NCBI RefSeq assembly: GCF_014138285.1
Contig: NZ_JACGXN010000008.1
Coordinates: 124,001 to 188,000, forward strand
Direction: 5' to 3'
Origin: Phyllobacterium myrsinacearum
GTDB taxonomy: Bacteria; Pseudomonadota; Alphaproteobacteria; Rhizobiales; Rhizobiaceae
Length of the DNA: 64,000 nucleotides
The position numbers and the translations under genes were made by a program. Under the pieces are notes generated by a model. The model saw nothing but the letters and a program-made list of their open reading frames with translations. It was not told where the DNA came from and did no database searches. This document shows, in pieces, positions 12,466-19,222 of the stretch (its first letter is position 1; the number at the start of each line of letters is the position of its first letter).

Positions 12466-13590
12466 TTATTGCTGCAAAACCTGCTTGATATCAATCAGAT
12501 TGGAACGCACGCGCAGAATATAGAAACCCATGGTTGTCAGGTGGTTGGGCAACAACCATCCGCCCTCGCTGCCATTGGCGATGATCCACGGCCTGATGTT
12601 GAGCGCTGAGCGCAACTGCCCGTCCATACCATCCCACAGCGGTGTCAGGTGCTTCTCCTGCAGGACCTGCTTGAAGTCCACCTGCGCCGCGTTCATCAGG
12701 CCGTAGTAAGCATAAAGCTGACCGTAGGCGAACCAGAACCGGTCATCGGCGCGGGTATCGAACCAGCCGTAATTGTTGTTCTCGGAACGGTCCTTCAGGA
12801 TGGCCGAAGTGGCACCTATATCATTGGCGATACGGTCAATGAACTGGATGAGGTTGTCGGCCCGCGCATCAAAGATTGCGTTGCAGGTTTCGAGTTTCGA
12901 ATTGAACGACCTGAGATCTTTCACCGCTGAACGATAATAGCTCGGTGTCGGTGTCTTTGGACCGAACGGATTCAGGCCAAAATACCAGGCATCCTCGGTG
13001 AACTGCAGATTGCCGCGAGCTTTCTGCAGATCGCCGTCGATCTGCGAGGTTCCGCGAACGCGGCCAAGCGTGTCAACGAGTTCGACGCCCGTGCGCCGGA
13101 CAGCAGAATTGATACCACGCTGGAAAGCCGCCTTGTTGTCAAGGAATGGCGTGTCGTCCCATGATATGCCGAAGAAACCGAGTTTGAACAGCAGCATGGA
13201 TGATATCCAGGCATTCTGGTTGACGTTGAAATCGGTCAGATCGGCTGTGACCTCGACCACGGCCGATCGGGCGCAGCTCTTGGGTGCCGCATCAGCCGCT
13301 TGCGCCGGCACGGGTTCACCGGCGGCAACCTCGCGCTTTTCGAAATTGTAGGCAGCGACATAATCCGGATTGAAGTTGGTCCAGACCTGTGTGACCCAGA
13401 AGAAATAGCCATAAAGCCCGATCCAGAGGATCACAAACGCTCCGACGACGGTCTTCAGAATCCAGCCCCGCTGGGTGTACCATCTGCCTGCCCACAGGAA
13501 CGGCCAAAGGACGATCCCGACCGCATAACCGATGCCGCGTCCGATCAGGTAGAAAATCCGGCTGAAGAAGTTAATCACGGGATCGAGCAT
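12466..13590 (-). CDS. DUF2333 family membrane-anchored protein
   Basis: 374 residues. Two hydrophobic stretches near the N-terminus (about 10-35 and 45-68) anchor it in the inner membrane; the remaining 300 residues should be periplasmic. The sequence fits the uncharacterised DUF2333 family. Last gene of a five-gene minus-strand operon starting at 19222; it begins 12 bases after the stop of the preceding gene. Function unknown. As the only clearly membrane-embedded member it is the likely envelope anchor for whatever the operon builds. Confidence 0.75.
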   Translation of the reverse strand: MLDPVINFFSRIFYLIGRGIGYAVGIVLWPFLWAGRWYTQRGWILKTVVGAFVILWIGLYGYFFWVTQVWTNFNPDYVAAYNFEKREVAAGEPVPAQAADAAPKSCARSAVVEVTADLTDFNVNQNAWISSMLLFKLGFFGISWDDTPFLDNKAAFQRGINSAVRRTGVELVDTLGRVRGTSQIDGDLQKARGNLQFTEDAWYFGLNPFGPKTPTPSYYRSAVKDLRSFNSKLETCNAIFDARADNLIQFIDRIANDIGATSAILKDRSENNNYGWFDTRADDRFWFAYGQLYAYYGLMNAAQVDFKQVLQEKHLTPLWDGMDGQLRSALNIRPWIIANGSEGGWLLPNHLTTMGFYILRVRSNLIDIKQVLQQ

Positions 13591-13602
13591 TGTGCATCCT
13601 TG

Positions 13603-14889
13603 CTAGGAGGTGAGACCGTAGAGCCGCTTCCGCAGCCCTTCCTTGTCCTTCAAATAGGTTGTTTTGAGTATATCGACAACGTGTTCCTGATAGGCAGGGT
13701 TCCAGCGGCCGTAATCGGCGTAGAAACCCTGCTTGTTGAAGACATAGCGCGACAGGAAATCCCATGGGACAAAATCACTGATCAGCTGATTAACCAGCCA
13801 CGCATCGGGATGGCGCGGGAGCGCCCGTACCACGAGAAAACGGCGTACCGGATCGATCTCGGACAGGTTGATTTGGCCCGTCTGGGCGATTTCGCGTTTG
13901 ACGGCATTCAGGAACGGCCACGTCCCGTCATGATTGATCAGGCTGGCATTGGCATGGATCCAGGTCTGCAGCCAGATGCGGTCAATGCCTGCAAGGTTCC
14001 GCTCCGGCTCAAGTGTCTGGATGAGATGGCGGATAATCATCTCGCCGCGGTTTTCCAGATAGCCGGATTGTTCGACCCAGGATGCGCGCGGCAACTCGAT
14101 GCGACCGGTCGAAACAAGAAACTGGAACACCTGATCGGCGTCCTTGATGGAGATGTAATTGACCTGCCATGGGCGTGAACGCCGAAAACCCGGCGCCGAG
14201 GGATCGCCGATGACCGTGGTCGTATTGTCATCGACAAAAATATAGACGCCGCCGAAATGGCTGGTCCAGAAAGCGCTGTGCCGGAAGACCACCTTGTCCG
14301 GAACCAGCGAATTCTCGCGGATATCACCAGTTACCTTTGCAAGCTCCACCATGCGGTTGAGCAGGTCATTGTTGCGCCACGTGTTCGGTTCGTTTTGCAG
14401 CTTGTCTACCAGCAAGCGCAGTTCTGCCGCTTGCCCCATGACATTTTCTGCGGACAGGACGCGGAATTCGACCTGATTGATCGAAAGCAGATCCTCTATG
14501 TCGTTGACGATGGAAACCGTATCCTCGATCTCACCGTAGATCACATCCTTGATCGTCAACGCATTGATCGCCCGCGCATTGCTGCTGAAGAACTCGTACA
14601 TCAACTGGGATGTGTTGGAGAACTGCGTGTGGACAACCGGAAGCACTGCCTGATCCGGTGTGAGTATAATGAACCGCCGGTTCACGCCGTTCGGATCGAG
14701 ATAGGACGGGTCTTTCAGTTCGGTGGCGATCTCAGGCGAAAAGCCAGTTCGATCAATGTCGAACTGCTTGAGTTTCGTTGCCTTGAAGCCAAATGCCGTC
14801 AGAGCCCGGTTATACCGCTCGATCAGATGCGGCTGGTCGATTGTCAGAAGACGCCCGTAAATCAACTCGTTCTCATAGAGAAGGTCCAT
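13603..14889 (-). CDS. Conserved protein of unknown function, DUF6638-like
   Basis: 428 residues, no signal peptide or membrane segment, mixed helical and strand content. I believe this corresponds to the DUF6638 family found next to AAA ATPases in rhizobia, but that is from memory and not secure. The frame is open 61 codons further upstream, but that extension runs through an inverted-repeat element and is unlikely to be coding; the ATG at 14889 follows AGAGGGGG, which is itself the end of the repeat. Fourth gene of the five-gene operon, separated from the AAA ATPase by the repeat. Confidence 0.6.
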   Translation of the reverse strand: MDLLYENELIYGRLLTIDQPHLIERYNRALTAFGFKATKLKQFDIDRTGFSPEIATELKDPSYLDPNGVNRRFIILTPDQAVLPVVHTQFSNTSQLMYEFFSSNARAINALTIKDVIYGEIEDTVSIVNDIEDLLSINQVEFRVLSAENVMGQAAELRLLVDKLQNEPNTWRNNDLLNRMVELAKVTGDIRENSLVPDKVVFRHSAFWTSHFGGVYIFVDDNTTTVIGDPSAPGFRRSRPWQVNYISIKDADQVFQFLVSTGRIELPRASWVEQSGYLENRGEMIIRHLIQTLEPERNLAGIDRIWLQTWIHANASLINHDGTWPFLNAVKREIAQTGQINLSEIDPVRRFLVVRALPRHPDAWLVNQLISDFVPWDFLSRYVFNKQGFYADYGRWNPAYQEHVVDILKTTYLKDKEGLRKRLYGLTS

Positions 14890-14892
14890 GCT

Positions 14893-15047
14893 AACCCCCT
14901 CTGCCCCGACGGGCATCTCCCCCACAAAGGGGGAGATATCGGCATCGACAGTTGCGCCAACCTTGCAACGGCAAAGATTGATTGAAACGGCCATGACGGC
15001 TGTTCTCTCCCCTTGTGGAGGAGATGGGTGACAGCCCATAGGGGGGT
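14893..15047. repeat. Intergenic inverted-repeat (RIME/MITE-like) element
   Basis: The left arm (about 14893-14936) and the right arm (15003-15047) are imperfect inverted copies of about 44 bp: ACCCCCCT-like ends followed by ATCTCC(C)CCACAA. Each arm also contains a smaller palindrome (TCTCCCCC...GGGGGAGA). Such palindromic mosaic elements are scattered between genes in rhizobial genomes. Here the element splits two operon genes and its left end supplies the GGGGG ribosome-binding sequence of the downstream gene. Confidence 0.7.
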
Positions 15048-15059
15048 GCAAACAGGAGA

Positions 15060-16970
15060 CTATGCATCCCACTGCCCCCGGGCCTTCAAGGCTTCCACTT
15101 CCTTGATTGCCCGTTCACGCAGGCGCGCATCGCGGACAATCTTTTCAACGGCAGCATCGTCTGACTTGTCGGCATAGCGGAATTCCGAATCCGCATAACG
15201 GTTGGTTTCCTGCAGCACCATTTCCATCGTGAAGGGCTTGCGCAGTTCCTCGACCATCGCCTTCTTCTCATCATAGGGCTTGTGCATGAACGTCTCGGGC
15301 TTTTCAAACCATTCATCCGGCAGTTCGATGTCCATGGCGCGCATCTTGATCGCATCCGTAACATTTTTGATGGCGCGGCCGGTGAAGCGGGGTTCGCGCT
15401 CCTTGATCATATGCAGATAGGTGCCGATATCAGCGAGCGTTTCCGGCTCGCCGTTCTCACCAATGAAGCGCTCATAGACAGCCTTCAATCCGTCTTCCTG
15501 CGGCTTTGACAGCTGGTCATAGGCGGCATCCACCGCACGTTCGATCTGCTGATCCTCGAACAGCTTGTGTTCGCCGAGCGGAATCCTGTGATTCTTGCCC
15601 GCCAGCAACGCGAAAATGTCGATGTAGTCGTTTCGCGTCTGTGGTCCGTCAACGAGCCAGCGCGCGCCAGCGCGTTGGCGCAACGCATCGTCGACATTTT
15701 CCGGATAGTTGGAAAACATGCCGAATGAACAATTGCCGCGCACCACCGTGGATGCACCGGCAAACGCTTCCATCAGCACGCCAGTAATTTCCTGCTGACC
15801 TGCGGAAGCGCGGTCGTCGGAACGCCGCGCAGCAACCTGATCGATATCATCGATGGTTCCAAAACCGATCACGCGCGGATTGAGCACGTTGTTGACGAAC
15901 TGACGGCAGTTCTGGCCCGACTTGCCCTGATAGGAAGAAATCTGGTCGACACCGAAATTCTCATAATGGAAGGCATAACCTGCCACCTGACAATAATCAT
16001 TGACGAGACCGGCAATCATCTGGATCAGCGTTGTCTTCCCGGTACCGGGCGCGCCATCGCCGATGAAAGTGAACAAAAAGCCGCCCAGCTCGACGAAGGG
16101 ATTAAGCTGGCGGTCAAAATCATAGGCCATCAGCATTTTTGAAAGCTTCAATGCCTGATACTTCGCAATGTGGTTGCCGACGACTTCACTGGGCTTTTTG
16201 AAGGTCATGACGAGTGGCGTACGTTTCTTGCCCGGCGCCACATCGAAACCGTCAAGCGTGAAATCATCGCTGTCGAGACGCAGATGCGTGTCTTCAAAGC
16301 TGCCGAGCCCGTCAAACCGTCCCTTGCGTTGCAACAACCCTTCAATGGCGGCAGCGGCGTAGGCCTTTGCACGAGCCAGCATGGTCTGTTCATCGGCCGC
16401 ACCGGCAATTGTCCGGTCCAACCCGCCAATGACAGATTTCAGTGCGTCCTGCGCCGTATCGAAATTGAATTCCGGTGCCGTCACATCATTGGCTGCCTGG
16501 GTATCCGCTTCGATCAGTTGCGAAAGATAGGCTGCAAGTGCAAAGGCGGACACGTAGGCAGCCGCAGACAAGAGCTTTTTGAAATGGCTAGCATCTTCAC
16601 CCTGCAAGGGCGTTGACGCGTTGCGCGCCAGAAGATTTTCCAGATCGCTTTGGCGGCCAAAAACATCGGCAACGGCCAGTGCCACGGCAACACCGCGCCG
16701 TGCCCGGAAAAGCAGTGTGTGCTGGGCGATGGACAGCATTTGATCGTCAGGACGCACGGACTGGATGGTCTTTGTCAGGTCCACTTCACGCGTAGAGCGC
16801 AGACCGCCTGTCGAAACCGTCGAGACAAACCGCCGCCCGGTACCGGCAATCTCGGTTCCGGATTTGCTCTCGCCCGTCTCCAGCACCACAAAGCGCGTCA
16901 CCAGTGCCTGTGCCACAGGCAGATGCTTCGCTATGTCCTTTTCGTCAATGGTGGTCAAACCGACATCCAT
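15060..16970 (-). CDS. AAA family ATPase of an uncharacterised operon
   Basis: 636 residues. The N-terminal 290 residues are helical and not recognisable. The AAA module follows: Walker A GAPGTGKT at 306-313, Walker B-like VIGFGTIDDID at about 367-377, then sensor and C-terminal helical regions to about 560. The Walker B sequence is preceded by a small residue string rather than the usual four hydrophobics. A GGGGAG ribosome site lies seven bases before the ATG. Third gene of the operon, 12 bases after the preceding stop. The ATPase presumably remodels or assembles partners encoded beside it; MoxR-type chaperones with co-transcribed unknowns are the nearest analogy, by architecture only. Confidence 0.8.
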   Translation of the reverse strand: MDVGLTTIDEKDIAKHLPVAQALVTRFVVLETGESKSGTEIAGTGRRFVSTVSTGGLRSTREVDLTKTIQSVRPDDQMLSIAQHTLLFRARRGVAVALAVADVFGRQSDLENLLARNASTPLQGEDASHFKKLLSAAAYVSAFALAAYLSQLIEADTQAANDVTAPEFNFDTAQDALKSVIGGLDRTIAGAADEQTMLARAKAYAAAAIEGLLQRKGRFDGLGSFEDTHLRLDSDDFTLDGFDVAPGKKRTPLVMTFKKPSEVVGNHIAKYQALKLSKMLMAYDFDRQLNPFVELGGFLFTFIGDGAPGTGKTTLIQMIAGLVNDYCQVAGYAFHYENFGVDQISSYQGKSGQNCRQFVNNVLNPRVIGFGTIDDIDQVAARRSDDRASAGQQEITGVLMEAFAGASTVVRGNCSFGMFSNYPENVDDALRQRAGARWLVDGPQTRNDYIDIFALLAGKNHRIPLGEHKLFEDQQIERAVDAAYDQLSKPQEDGLKAVYERFIGENGEPETLADIGTYLHMIKEREPRFTGRAIKNVTDAIKMRAMDIELPDEWFEKPETFMHKPYDEKKAMVEELRKPFTMEMVLQETNRYADSEFRYADKSDDAAVEKIVRDARLRERAIKEVEALKARGQWDA

Positions 16971-16982
16971 GATTGCGCTCCC

Positions 16983-18134
16983 CTAAATGTCGCTAATGAC
17001 CTGGCCATTGGACAGGATATGGGTTTTGAATCCGCTGAAAACGCGGGTCGCCTCACCGGAGGCATACAGGGCCTGATAGGCTTCGTGCGGCACGAGTGCG
17101 TGCTGCTCGTAGCTGCTGACGCCCTGACGGGCCGCCTCCAGATCATCCGTATTGATGTAGAATTCCTCACGCGACGGCTCCGATGACCAGAGCCCGCGTT
17201 TTCCCGGCCGTTCCGCCTTCGAGAAGACTTCCTGCATGGTCCACGTCAGAAGCCAGGCATCTTCCGGTTTGCGGACGCGCTCCAGCACATCTGAGACCTT
17301 CTGGTTATGCTCGGTAATTCCCGCCGTGTAGAAAGGCCCAAGAACCACGCGCCGCAACTGCTTCGGATGCAGTTCAGGGAAATCATTGTCGAGACTGGTC
17401 GCTATCGTTATCGGCGAGAGCGAATAGGCCGAATTCTTGGCGGCGAAATCATCAAAGCGGCGCGCCAGCTCCGGATTGAGCAATCCGCCCACCGGCAGCG
17501 GTATCCGTACATTGGGATTGAGCTTGCCATCTTTGCCGACAAGGGTCTCCACGAGATTCTCCGACGAATCCTCGATGATTGCCATGTAGATCAGCGGCAG
17601 GTTGGACGCCCCGTCAAACGCCCCCCAATGCACCACATAGAGTGGCCGCATCGTCTTGGGGTTGACCGAAACGCGGATGGTCACTGGCAGGATGAAGGGT
17701 GAAAAAACCTCGCCCTGTTCCACGGCTTCAAGATAGATCCGCTCGGCCATCGACCGCTGCAGATCGCGTGGGAATTCGCGGTGCCGCAGGATGAAATCAG
17801 CCATTTCGTTGCGGAGCGCCGCCGCCGGTGGAATGGCTGCCAGCCGGGATTTCGTGTCCTTCTTGTCGTTTTCCAGTTCCAGCACGTTCTGGAAAACCGG
17901 AAAACCGCTTTCCGCACGCGAAATCTGGAACCGGTCGGTGAAACCGATCCGGTTGCGCCAGCATTCGAACGAAGCCTCCAGCCGCCGCAGATATTCCGAT
18001 ACGGTTTGCGCGACAAGATCGTGCTTGTAGAGCGGGGACTGCTGGTTGTTGAGAAAGATCTCCAGCCCGTCCAGTGCAGCACGTATCGCGCCGAAATAAC
18101 GTTCGGCGGCCGTCAGGTCAGCATTCTGCACCAT
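16983..18134 (-). CDS. Hypothetical protein in AAA ATPase operon
   Basis: 383 residues, soluble, no signal peptide. Residues 1-150 look helical; the middle has a beta-rich stretch (VTIRVSVNPKTMRPLYVVHW). No family recognised. Its ATG shares a base with the stop of the coiled-coil gene (TAATG), so the two are translationally coupled and probably made in fixed proportion. Second gene of the operon. Confidence 0.6.
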   Translation of the reverse strand: MVQNADLTAAERYFGAIRAALDGLEIFLNNQQSPLYKHDLVAQTVSEYLRRLEASFECWRNRIGFTDRFQISRAESGFPVFQNVLELENDKKDTKSRLAAIPPAAALRNEMADFILRHREFPRDLQRSMAERIYLEAVEQGEVFSPFILPVTIRVSVNPKTMRPLYVVHWGAFDGASNLPLIYMAIIEDSSENLVETLVGKDGKLNPNVRIPLPVGGLLNPELARRFDDFAAKNSAYSLSPITIATSLDNDFPELHPKQLRRVVLGPFYTAGITEHNQKVSDVLERVRKPEDAWLLTWTMQEVFSKAERPGKRGLWSSEPSREEFYINTDDLEAARQGVSSYEQHALVPHEAYQALYASGEATRVFSGFKTHILSNGQVISDI

Positions 18135-19222
18135 TAATTCTGCACATAGTCAGCGGAATTGTGTTTCTTCAGAACTTCCGAGAAACGACGTGAGAAAGCA
18201 TCGTCGGCAAGTTTCTTGCGCCGCTGGATGTCCTGCGTACTGACCATGTTCTTCTCGTGCATTTCGAGAAGATCGCCAATATGCTTCTGCGCGGCAGCGC
18301 CGACACCGGCCATGGTTTCTTCCGCTGCCGTATCAACCCGGCTGCCGAGCGTATTGATCTTGTGCGCGACATCCTGCTGAGCGGCTGTTTTCAACGAGTC
18401 TTCCAGCGCCTTGTAGAGCACGATGCGCTGTTCGGTATCGATGGAGAGCTTGTTGATCAGCGTGCTTTGGGCCGCAATCTGGTTGTTGAGCGAATCCACA
18501 AAGGTCTGAAACATGGAGGTGTAGCGCTCCAGCGTCTGGCTTTCAGCCAGAAGCTCCTGCTCCTTGGCCTGACGTTCATTGTATTCCGTTGCCAGTTTGG
18601 ACCGGTCGCCTTCCAGCGTCGCACGCGTTCCCTGGTCGGTGGATGCCGCAATCTTGTTCTCAATATCGAGCAGGAGGGGGTTAAGCTCTTCGATACGCTT
18701 CTGCGTGGCTTCGAGTGACGCTACCGTGGTCTTGCGGCGCTCAATGACATTGGCGAGGCTGGCTTCCGACGTCTTGTAGCGGGCATCGAGAACAGTCTTC
18801 TGCTCCTTCAGAATACCGACGATCCGATCAGACTTGGAAAGCAGCTCCTGCAGGTTGCCGGCCAGCGACATGTTGCGCACACGGTCGGTGCGCAGACGTT
18901 GCATCTTGTCTTTCGAGAAAACACCAACGAGCTTTTCCCAGCCTGAATAGCTCTTCATGCTTTCAAATTCAGAACCGAACACATTGGTCGCGTCTTCGAG
19001 CCCAATGATCAGATCGGCAATATTGCCTTCCATCACCTTCTGCTGGCGCAGAACGTCGTCAATGCGGGCATTTTCTATATCGAAGTCGGGATTTCCGATC
19101 TTGGCATCCGCCTTGGCGAATTTGTCGAGAACGACGCTGGACTGGTCAATCTTCGTCCGCATCTCGTTGACCATGTTACGGGTCTTTTCGATCTCGGTGT
19201 CAAAACTCTGCAAACTCGCCAT
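18134..19222 (-). CDS. Coiled-coil protein, first gene of the AAA ATPase operon
   Basis: 362 residues, almost entirely alpha-helical and charged, with heptad-like stretches at about 1-50, 125-240 and 270-350; no membrane segment. Overall size and helical bundle character recall TelA-type (toxic anion resistance) proteins, but I see no diagnostic TelA motif. Opens a five-gene operon (19222 to 12466) whose first two genes overlap. A dyad ATGCCGT-N12-ACGGCAT lies about 40-65 bases upstream and could be its operator. Confidence 0.65.
   Translation of the reverse strand: MASLQSFDTEIEKTRNMVNEMRTKIDQSSVVLDKFAKADAKIGNPDFDIENARIDDVLRQQKVMEGNIADLIIGLEDATNVFGSEFESMKSYSGWEKLVGVFSKDKMQRLRTDRVRNMSLAGNLQELLSKSDRIVGILKEQKTVLDARYKTSEASLANVIERRKTTVASLEATQKRIEELNPLLLDIENKIAASTDQGTRATLEGDRSKLATEYNERQAKEQELLAESQTLERYTSMFQTFVDSLNNQIAAQSTLINKLSIDTEQRIVLYKALEDSLKTAAQQDVAHKINTLGSRVDTAAEETMAGVGAAAQKHIGDLLEMHEKNMVSTQDIQRRKKLADDAFSRRFSEVLKKHNSADYVQN

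Follow-up and report, generated by a model that had tools for sequence, protein, structure and literature searches.

What do five adjoining genes around an AAA ATPase do in Phyllobacterium myrsinacearum, and do they belong together at all? In the analysed DNA stretch of 64,000 nt (hereafter, the window), all five open reading frames lie on the minus strand, from the start of g1 at 19222 to the stop of g5 at 12466. As a first-pass annotation of the bare sequence had described, g1 and g2 overlap by one base (TAATG at 18134, common to both genes), and 12-base gaps separate g2 from g3 (16971–16982) and g4 from g5 (13591–13602). The domain names given there also hold, with g3 matching AAA (PF00004; 44.4 bits, curated cut-off 21.2), g4 DUF6638 (PF20343; 242.3 bits, cut-off 27), and g5 DUF2333 (PF10095; 83.6 bits, cut-off 22). 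Searches against Pfam returned only sub-cut-off matches for g1 and none for g2. The start of g4 was placed by homology at 14889; a longer reading frame from 15072 runs through a dispersed repeat with 59 match rows within the window's own genome, and in a close relative (G004, locus L019) the first base of g4 is the final base of the g3 stop codon. Promoter and terminator scans found 6 and 9 candidates, respectively, compared to 3.7 and 7.6 in shuffled sequence.

Table 1. Features of the locus, in window coordinates.
Feature	Coordinates	Strand	Description
g1	18134..19222	-	362 aa, coiled-coil protein, helical throughout; Pfam matches all below cut-off
g1 residues 273-294	18341..18406	-	conserved segment; candidate contact site for g3, g2 or g4
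g2	16983..18134	-	383 aa, family-less protein; no predicted membrane helix
g3	15060..16970	-	636 aa, classic AAA ATPase; ~300 residues ahead of AAA match
g3-g4 junction	14890..15059	.	dispersed repeat, outside the machine
g4	13603..14889	-	428 aa, DUF6638 protein
g5	12466..13590	-	374 aa, DUF2333 protein; exchangeable subunit

That the gene cluster is a real unit is well supported. In a phylum-wide sample of 398 genomes, g3 (E ≤ 1e-20) occurs in 26, all of which also carry g1 (26/26; window genome counted in), and g1 (E ≤ 1e-10) occurs in 30. As fetching loci by g3 or DUF6638 favours those with kept neighbours, the co-occurrence claim rests on this sample. Within the genus, g3 was found in 20 of 20 genomes, and a search among relatives recovered it from 33 of 59 (own genome counted). 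DUF6638 was detected in six of 289 genomes of the class, in five of them above cut-off, and all four of the latter other than the window's have g1, g2, and g3 adjoining. Of the 80 named loci, which are the best 80 among 456 confirmed relatives found with a query headed by an Aestuariispira protein and hence mostly come from Rhodobacterales, 73 have g1, g2, and g4 close to g3. Three of the exceptions stop at a contig end (L083, L089, L097) and one contains 323 N (L099); the true departures are L076, where g3 stands alone with the other core genes absent within ~8 kb, and L146 and L150, which lack g4 near g3 within 4.7 kb and 8 kb, respectively. The genes are thus kept together in related genomes. 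The proposed five-gene operon stands as a conserved, co-inherited unit, amended in that its core comprises four genes, g1–g4, and that the fifth place is exchangeable.

The gene set was seen in Sinorhizobium and related members of the window's family, in Rhodobacterales, Stappiaceae, Halomonas, Aestuariispira, and Vibrio, and Vibrio parahaemolyticus keeps the order g1–g2–g3–g4 at about 37, 29, 40, and 27% identity, respectively. Packing of the core genes is not always tight: median spacing in the named loci (best 80 of 456) is 160 bases for g1–g2, 75 for g2–g3, and 492 for g3–g4, the widest g3–g4 gap there spans 2,382 bases, and in the S. meliloti record (strain Ak57) g3 and g4 are separated by an endonuclease gene as well as an insertion sequence. 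In a quick tree of joined g1–g4 sequences, built from 38 of 68 rows holding all four genes and accompanied by long-branch warnings, the single Halomonas row nests inside Rhodobacterales. Each of the four Halomonas proteins has the same two nearest rows, the alphaproteobacterial loci L096 and L117, and Halomonas seems to have obtained the block from Rhodobacterales. Pairwise distances of g1–g4 correlate at 0.94–0.97, values of a height that shared ancestry alone also yields. Apparently, inheritance predominated for the core, with occasional transfer of the whole block.

As to what such a unit might do, we lean tentatively towards an undescribed four-protein core with an exchangeable inner-membrane partner, in which g3, through contacts that we infer, would pull on assemblies of g1. 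The motifs of g3 are those of a classic AAA ATPase and comprise a Walker A (residues 304–313), a pore loop 1 (Y347-Q-G), a Walker B ending in D374-D375, a sensor-1 N421, and the arginine fingers R431/R433/R437. GDGxPGTGKT, YQGKS, N421, and the three arginines are invariant in 84 of 84 g3 sequences, and in alignments YQG falls opposite YVG in an i-AAA protease and YLG in a proteasomal ATPase. The Walker B reads Asp-Asp in the same 84 sequences, with D375 where the canonical Glu is expected; hydrolysis by g3 may therefore be slow or absent, and since the Walker B is not Asp-Glu, we file g3 as an AAA-domain protein rather than a proven active ATPase. The invariant D375, opposed to Glu in the aligned i-AAA and proteasomal ATPases, would suit an ATP-gated scaffold or switch, with g3 as a nucleotide-dependent platform for g1, g2, and g4 and little or no hydrolysis. 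We rate this as rather unlikely: the invariant pore-loop aromatic, Walker A, sensor-1 Asn, and arginine fingers would be less needed in a protein that does not hydrolyse, and a Walker-B Asp may still support hydrolysis.

The fifth place would give the core its link to the membrane; in 75 of the 80 named loci (best 80 of 456), the next gene encodes a membrane protein. In the window and in same-family relatives this protein is DUF2333; in Rhodobacterales (PF07509, above curated cut-off), Stappiaceae, Halomonas, and Aestuariispira it is DUF1523. Profile comparison ruled out a relationship between the two families (probability 0.3). In g5 a single membrane helix is predicted (strongest 19-residue stretch, 42–60), and the ~300 aa behind it are probably periplasmic. 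After rows unreadable in frame had been dropped from the 80 loci, hydropathy assigned one or two membrane helices to 72 of 72 DUF1523 proteins, two to 59 of 59 x8 proteins, and none to any of the 76 g1, 78 g2, and 72 g4 sequences read. One or two stretches above threshold in 20 of the 71 remaining g3 sequences were taken for buried helices. Neither DUF2333 nor DUF1523 was matched next to g1–g4 on the Vibrio parahaemolyticus megaplasmid and a Rhizobium plasmid, and DUF2333 is present without g1 in relatives G022 and G033, which makes the link to the membrane optional.

The frequent membrane-protein neighbour would also fit a general chaperone or unfoldase, with g1–g4 serving an envelope or stress client without remodelling g1 assemblies. 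This explanation, which we consider unlikely, can also draw on a ChvI-bound DNA fragment inside S. meliloti SMc02733, a gene that may be g3 by gene count from shmR (SMc02726) along annotated neighbours. However, the equation of SMc02733 with g3 is deduced from this count, and in the accessible portion of the ChvI screen's report the fragments are mostly intragenic and SMc02733 is not named among the reporter-tested genes.

For the reading in which g3 acts on g1 itself, the fate of g1 in genomes devoid of the remaining core is informative. Where g2–g4 are missing, a diverged g1 and DUF2333 remain, again with tdk and choline-transport genes as neighbours. Four genomes keep a g1-like protein without g3, so g1 may have its own job or be decaying there. 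Three aligned g1 relatives from genomes lacking g2–g4, all of one genus, miss residues 273–294 (22 residues), and their tails differ from those of other g1 proteins; the fourth g3-less genome, G587, was covered by tblastn and open reading frame listing and stands outside this alignment. In g1, conservation of the segment is 0.918 versus a mean of 0.777, ranking 22nd of 341 stretches of equal length. On the basis of these three sequences from a single genus, residues 273–294 may be where g1 contacts g3, g2, or g4.

The predicted g1 structure features a long helical hairpin (120–193/197–318) after N-terminal helices, in a model of moderate confidence only (mean pLDDT 73, most of 288–327 below 50). 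With this hairpin beside a classic AAA ATPase, the cast is that of ESCRT-III and Vps4, and g1 could be a far-diverged filament former of the PspA/Snf7 type in a bacterial branch of that system, with g3 as its Vps4-type ATPase. Kinship of g1 with PspA was nevertheless rejected on profile comparison (probability 2.4 against PspA) and on the lack of a PspA_IM30 match in Pfam; Vipp1/PspA chains appeared only at E 0.44–0.71, amid unrelated coiled coils, and g3 has no Pfam match at E up to 1 ahead of residue 306. Searched with the moderately confident g1 model, Foldseek returned nothing at E ≤ 0.001, its best match (E 0.016) lying among generic helical bundles. VIA gave Z up to 14.3 to syntaxins, ClyA-type pore formers, SMC arms, and designed bundles, scores at the background level that the tool states for helical models. 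PspA/ESCRT-III chains were not among the best 50 rows of either tool, which excludes nothing. Descent from ESCRT-III/PspA appears quite improbable.

Less probable still is that the cluster serves in anti-phage defence, with a TRIP13- or IetA-like ATPase at its base. Weak PADLOC matches (TRIP13, E 1.2e-4; IetA, 9.4e-4) hint at it, but they are confined to the AAA domain, while g1, g2, g4, and g5 match nothing in PADLOC and none of the five genes matches cyclase, HORMA, or protease families in Pfam. The presence of g3 in 20 of 20 genomes of the genus likewise speaks against defence, and neither 50,697 phage records nor viral contigs yielded a match to g3 or a confirmed one, respectively. A stress or toxic-anion system of the TelA/Ter type can practically be dismissed: the resemblance of g1 to TelA-type proteins, drawn by the first-pass annotation from shape, extends to helical content and length and is refuted at the sequence level by the absence of a TelA match to g1 in Pfam, a profile comparison probability of 0.3, and the lack of any TelA match in the window genome.

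The two further core proteins are unrelated to each other, a common origin of g2 and g4 being ruled out by profile comparison (probability 0.4). In g2, residues S76, G77, and P79 are invariant in a 27-row and a 9-row alignment. The alpha/beta model predicted for g4 is confident (pLDDT 88.8, pTM 0.85) and is unmatched among solved structures, with a best Foldseek E of 1.3 and a Z below 5 for every one of 692 aligned chains (highest, 4.0). As the structure tool can miss a single-domain match above ~400 residues, a new fold is only possible for g4.

Spelled out, the pulling mechanism that we tentatively favour would run as follows. g1 would polymerise into elongated helical assemblies on the cytoplasmic side, close to the inner membrane. 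g3, presumably a hexamer, would grip its substrate through the aromatic pore loop (Y347) and then pull; the most likely target would be g1, at or near residues 273–294 together with the C-terminal tail. As a result, g1 assemblies would be taken apart or reshaped. g2 and g4 may be adaptors or docking subunits, and the membrane protein could link the machine to the envelope or report envelope state. The membrane-associated remodelling or scaffold machine suggested by the first-pass annotation thus remains a putative one. A bolder version, which strikes us as doubtful, would make the system a new class of ATP-driven filament remodelling not descended from ESCRT-III/PspA, with g1 as the founding filament-forming family, residues 273–294 as its handle, gripped by an AAA ATPase whose Walker B carries Asp, g4 as an adaptor of new fold, and inner-membrane anchors that vary between lineages.

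In the literature searched, no description of this operon was found, DUF6638 was named nowhere, and DUF2333 was named, in the accessible part of the source, in another gene setting. The earlier view of a unit without an assigned function, in which an ATPase occurs with a long helical and a membrane protein, is borne out, and DUF6638, DUF2333, and DUF1523, to which g4, g5, and the fifth protein of Rhodobacterales belong, are names without function. What makes the locus worth pursuing is that its gene order is kept across distant bacteria, that it apparently moved as a block, and that it combines an AAA ATPase with three further core proteins of no known function, among which g4 has a confidently predicted structure that lacks a solved counterpart.

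Among known systems, the nearest solved relatives of g3 by sequence are classic AAA ATPases (PF00004), i.e. the i-AAA protease 5ubv, the 26S proteasome regulatory subunit 4, and Afg2. With these, g3 shares the P-loop, aromatic pore loop 1, sensor-1 Asn, and arginine fingers; it departs from them in its Walker-B Asp, its long family-less N-terminal region, and its conserved partners g1, g2, and g4. CBASS TRIP13 and IetAS defence systems differ in that their partner genes find no PADLOC match among the other four genes here and that only the AAA domain of g3 matches. According to the accessible part of a 2024 mSystems survey of the Psp system (PMC11237479), bacterial PspA is sometimes found beside AAA ATPases; the sets described are PspA with a two-AAA-domain protein, and Vps4-like ATPases with a TPR/6TM protein, neither of which the g1–g4 gene set matches. 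Compared to ESCRT-III/PspA with Vps4, g1 is unrelated to PspA by profile and g3 has no MIT match in Pfam, whereas a helical hairpin protein adjoining a classic AAA ATPase, and possibly work at the membrane, would be common to both by analogy only. If the proposed mechanism is true, the locus would encode a hitherto undescribed machine, driven by ATP and working next to the bacterial inner membrane, as an analogue of ESCRT-III/Vps4.

At 12466–19222, where the first-pass annotation had claimed five minus-strand genes, five ORFs were found running from 19222 to 12466 and spaced as it had described, with a one-base overlap of g1 and g2 and gaps of 12 bases each at g2–g3 and g4–g5. Pfam assigned g3 to AAA, g4 to DUF6638 and g5 to DUF2333 above curated cut-offs; g1 gave sub-cut-off matches only, g2 none, and no NCBIfam match to the five genes exceeded the cut-offs. 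The AAA domain of g3 drew weak PADLOC and PHROGs matches, and g1 a single PHROGs match at chance level. We file g3 with the AAA-domain proteins, one defining residue being at variance, g4 with DUF6638 and g5 with DUF2333, leaving g1 and g2 without a family. The operon is flanked upstream by a thymidine kinase gene (named as annotated in the S. meliloti record) and downstream by what we take to be a PutA-like gene.

ORFs of the five-gene operon in the window
Gene	Feature	Strand	Length (aa)	Start
g1	ORF	minus	362	
g2	ORF	minus	383	
g3	ORF	minus	636	
g4	ORF	minus	428	14889
g5	ORF	minus	374	

A search of relatives detected g3 in 33 of 59 genomes, the window genome included: 20/20 of the genus, 9/15 of the family outside the genus and 4/24 of the order outside the family. 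Among 398 genomes sampled from the phylum, again including the window genome, 26 carried g3 (E <= 1e-20) and 30 carried g1 (E <= 1e-10), with g1 present in every one of the 26 g3-bearing genomes. DUF6638 was found in six of 289 class genomes, five above cut-off. Among 20 regions from 20 genomes selected by presence of g3 or DUF6638, gene order was retained in every case up to contig limits, all five genes being visible in 12. That the genes are kept together in relatives was further borne out by the named loci (best 80 of 456 confirmed relatives), 73 of which carry g1, g2 and g4 near g3. Contig ends (L083, L089, L097) or 323 N within the locus (L099) account for four incomplete sets; real departures are L076, with g3 alone, and L146 and L150, where g4 was not found. 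Thus g1–g4, usually with a membrane-protein neighbour, form a conserved unit.

The five-gene unit originally proposed stands as a conserved neighbourhood, but its core is four genes, the fifth place holding DUF2333 or DUF1523. DUF2333 lies 3′ of g4 in Rhizobiaceae loci and in three loci (L030, L031, L033) belonging to further families within the order, and DUF1523 does so in Rhodobacterales, Stappiaceae, Halomonas and Aestuariispira; the fifth gene is exchanged between the two. Profile comparison revealed no kinship between them. In the named loci (best 80 of 456), DUF1523 was found in 75, x8 in 64, x6 in nine and DUF2333 in none. Hydropathy analysis predicted one or two membrane helices in DUF1523 (72/72) and in each of seven DUF2333 proteins, and none in g1 (76/76), g2 (78/78) or g4 (72/72). 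The Rhodobacterales version also contains two small membrane families, x6 (three or four predicted helices) and x8 (two; 59/59), e.g. at L036:7562–7924 and L036:9296–9598, neither with a Pfam match above cut-off.

Matches to g3 occurred in 10 of 72,556 plasmid records (Sinorhizobium 4, Vibrio 4, Shinella 1, Rhizobium 1). The one Vibrio record inspected, from V. parahaemolyticus, has the order g1-g2-g3-g4, with DUF2333 and DUF1523 both unmatched within the 25.8 kb surrounding these genes. Upstream of g1 in Vibrio (L151:8161–9361), two same-strand genes of 90 and 279 aa without Pfam match are possible lineage-specific members. Plasmid pRlX5 of Rhizobium leguminosarum TP16 (L153) carries a more distant g1–g4 set, without DUF2333 or DUF1523 match, followed after g4 by ORFs of 678, 347 and 259 aa lacking predicted membrane helices. 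A quick tree of joined g1–g4 placed the single Halomonas row inside Rhodobacterales, and its two nearest rows were identical for each of g1–g4, which points to transfer as a block.

Between g3 and g4, the window holds a repeat of ~150 bases (14890–15059) that yields 59 match rows genome-wide, each strand and each partial copy being counted as its own row; as many rows fall on both strands, the repeat is partly palindromic. In the close relative G004 (L019), which lacks the repeat at this junction, g4 starts at the final base of the stop codon of g3, and the operon was therefore probably tighter before the insertion. Median gaps in the named loci (best 80 of 456) were 160 bases for g1–g2, 75 for g2–g3, 492 for g3–g4 (maximum 2,382), 0 for g4–x8 and 10 for x8–DUF1523. 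In the S. meliloti record, g3 and g4 are separated by an ISRm16 transposase and a gene with an endonuclease domain. Given this and the variable gaps, the neighbourhood is more strictly conserved than a single transcript. Insertions also accumulate at this junction in relatives (L024:8006–8688, L027:9329–9987, and L152:10100–11845, the S. meliloti pair per record annotation); apart from the S. meliloti insertion, the inserted gene pairs resemble VapBC toxin-antitoxin modules.

In all 84 g3 sequences, Vibrio included, GDGxPGTGKT, YQGKS, N421 and R431/R433/R437 are invariant, and the Walker-B Glu is replaced by Asp throughout. The YQG stretch aligns with the pore loops of an i-AAA protease and a proteasomal ATPase, making a threading ATPase likely. 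Hydropathy indicated no membrane helix in 51 of 71 g3 sequences and one or two hydrophobic stretches in 20, which we take for buried helices. In g2, S76, G77 and P79 never vary in the alignments, nor do several Trp, Pro and Arg residues. The g4 model (pLDDT 88.8, pTM 0.85) matched no solved structure. Predicted helical throughout, g1 is modelled with a hairpin (120–193/197–318) whose core is confident, individual blocks reaching pLDDT 98, whereas 288–327 is poorly modelled; structure searches returned generic matches. By profile comparison, g1 is neither TelA, for which a likeness in shape had been suggested (probability 0.3), nor PspA (2.4), and searches of the window's own genome for both gave no match.

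In S. meliloti, g1, g2, g3, g4, g5 and then fhs lie beside choline-transport genes and tdk; the record (L152, CP090106.1) is named pSymB, spans 3.72 million bases with these choline-transport, tdk and fhs genes, and, judged by usual replicon sizes, may be mislabelled. In four genomes (G380, G437 and G575 of one genus, plus G587), tdk is accompanied by a g1 relative (23–30% identity) and DUF2333, with no g2–g4 match in the stretch, and two (G022, G033) have tdk and DUF2333 with g1 absent. Together with S. meliloti, these genomes make up a reductive series at a single location. Across 12 genomes without g3, DUF2333 was found in six, a g1 relative in four and neither in six. Three aligned g1 relatives (G380, G437, G575) lack residues 273–294 and differ in their tails, a natural deletion where g2–g4 are absent. 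The segment falls among the best-conserved parts of g1, with a mean conservation of 0.918 vs. an overall mean of 0.777 (91 sequences; rank 22 of 341 windows, top 266–287). The simplest reading is that segment and tail serve the lost partners; alternatively, their loss might reflect decay of a useless protein.

Most likely, g3 would be a pulling ATPase for g1 assemblies beside an inner-membrane protein, with g2 and g4 as adaptors. Whereas the conserved unit, the ATPase motifs, the exchanged fifth gene and the natural deletion are observed, we infer contacts among the proteins, g1 polymerisation into assemblies, these as the substrate on which g3 would pull, and an envelope role for a machine adjoining the membrane protein. 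The strongest facts against such a pulling machine are the Walker-B Asp, the occurrence of DUF2333 without core genes and of g1-like proteins where the ATPase is missing, and loose gene packing. Excerpts of the S. meliloti literature place a ChvI-bound DNA fragment inside SMc02733 (PMC3687685) and equate shmR with SMc02726 (PMC8343143); counting annotated neighbours from shmR, SMc02733 could be g3, a weak lead. Searches of open-licence literature (DUF6638, DUF2333, DUF1523, PspA/TelA/AAA, S. meliloti tags) found no description of the operon. The PspA–AAA settings in the available excerpt of a 2024 Psp survey differ from the g1–g5 operon (PMC11237479).
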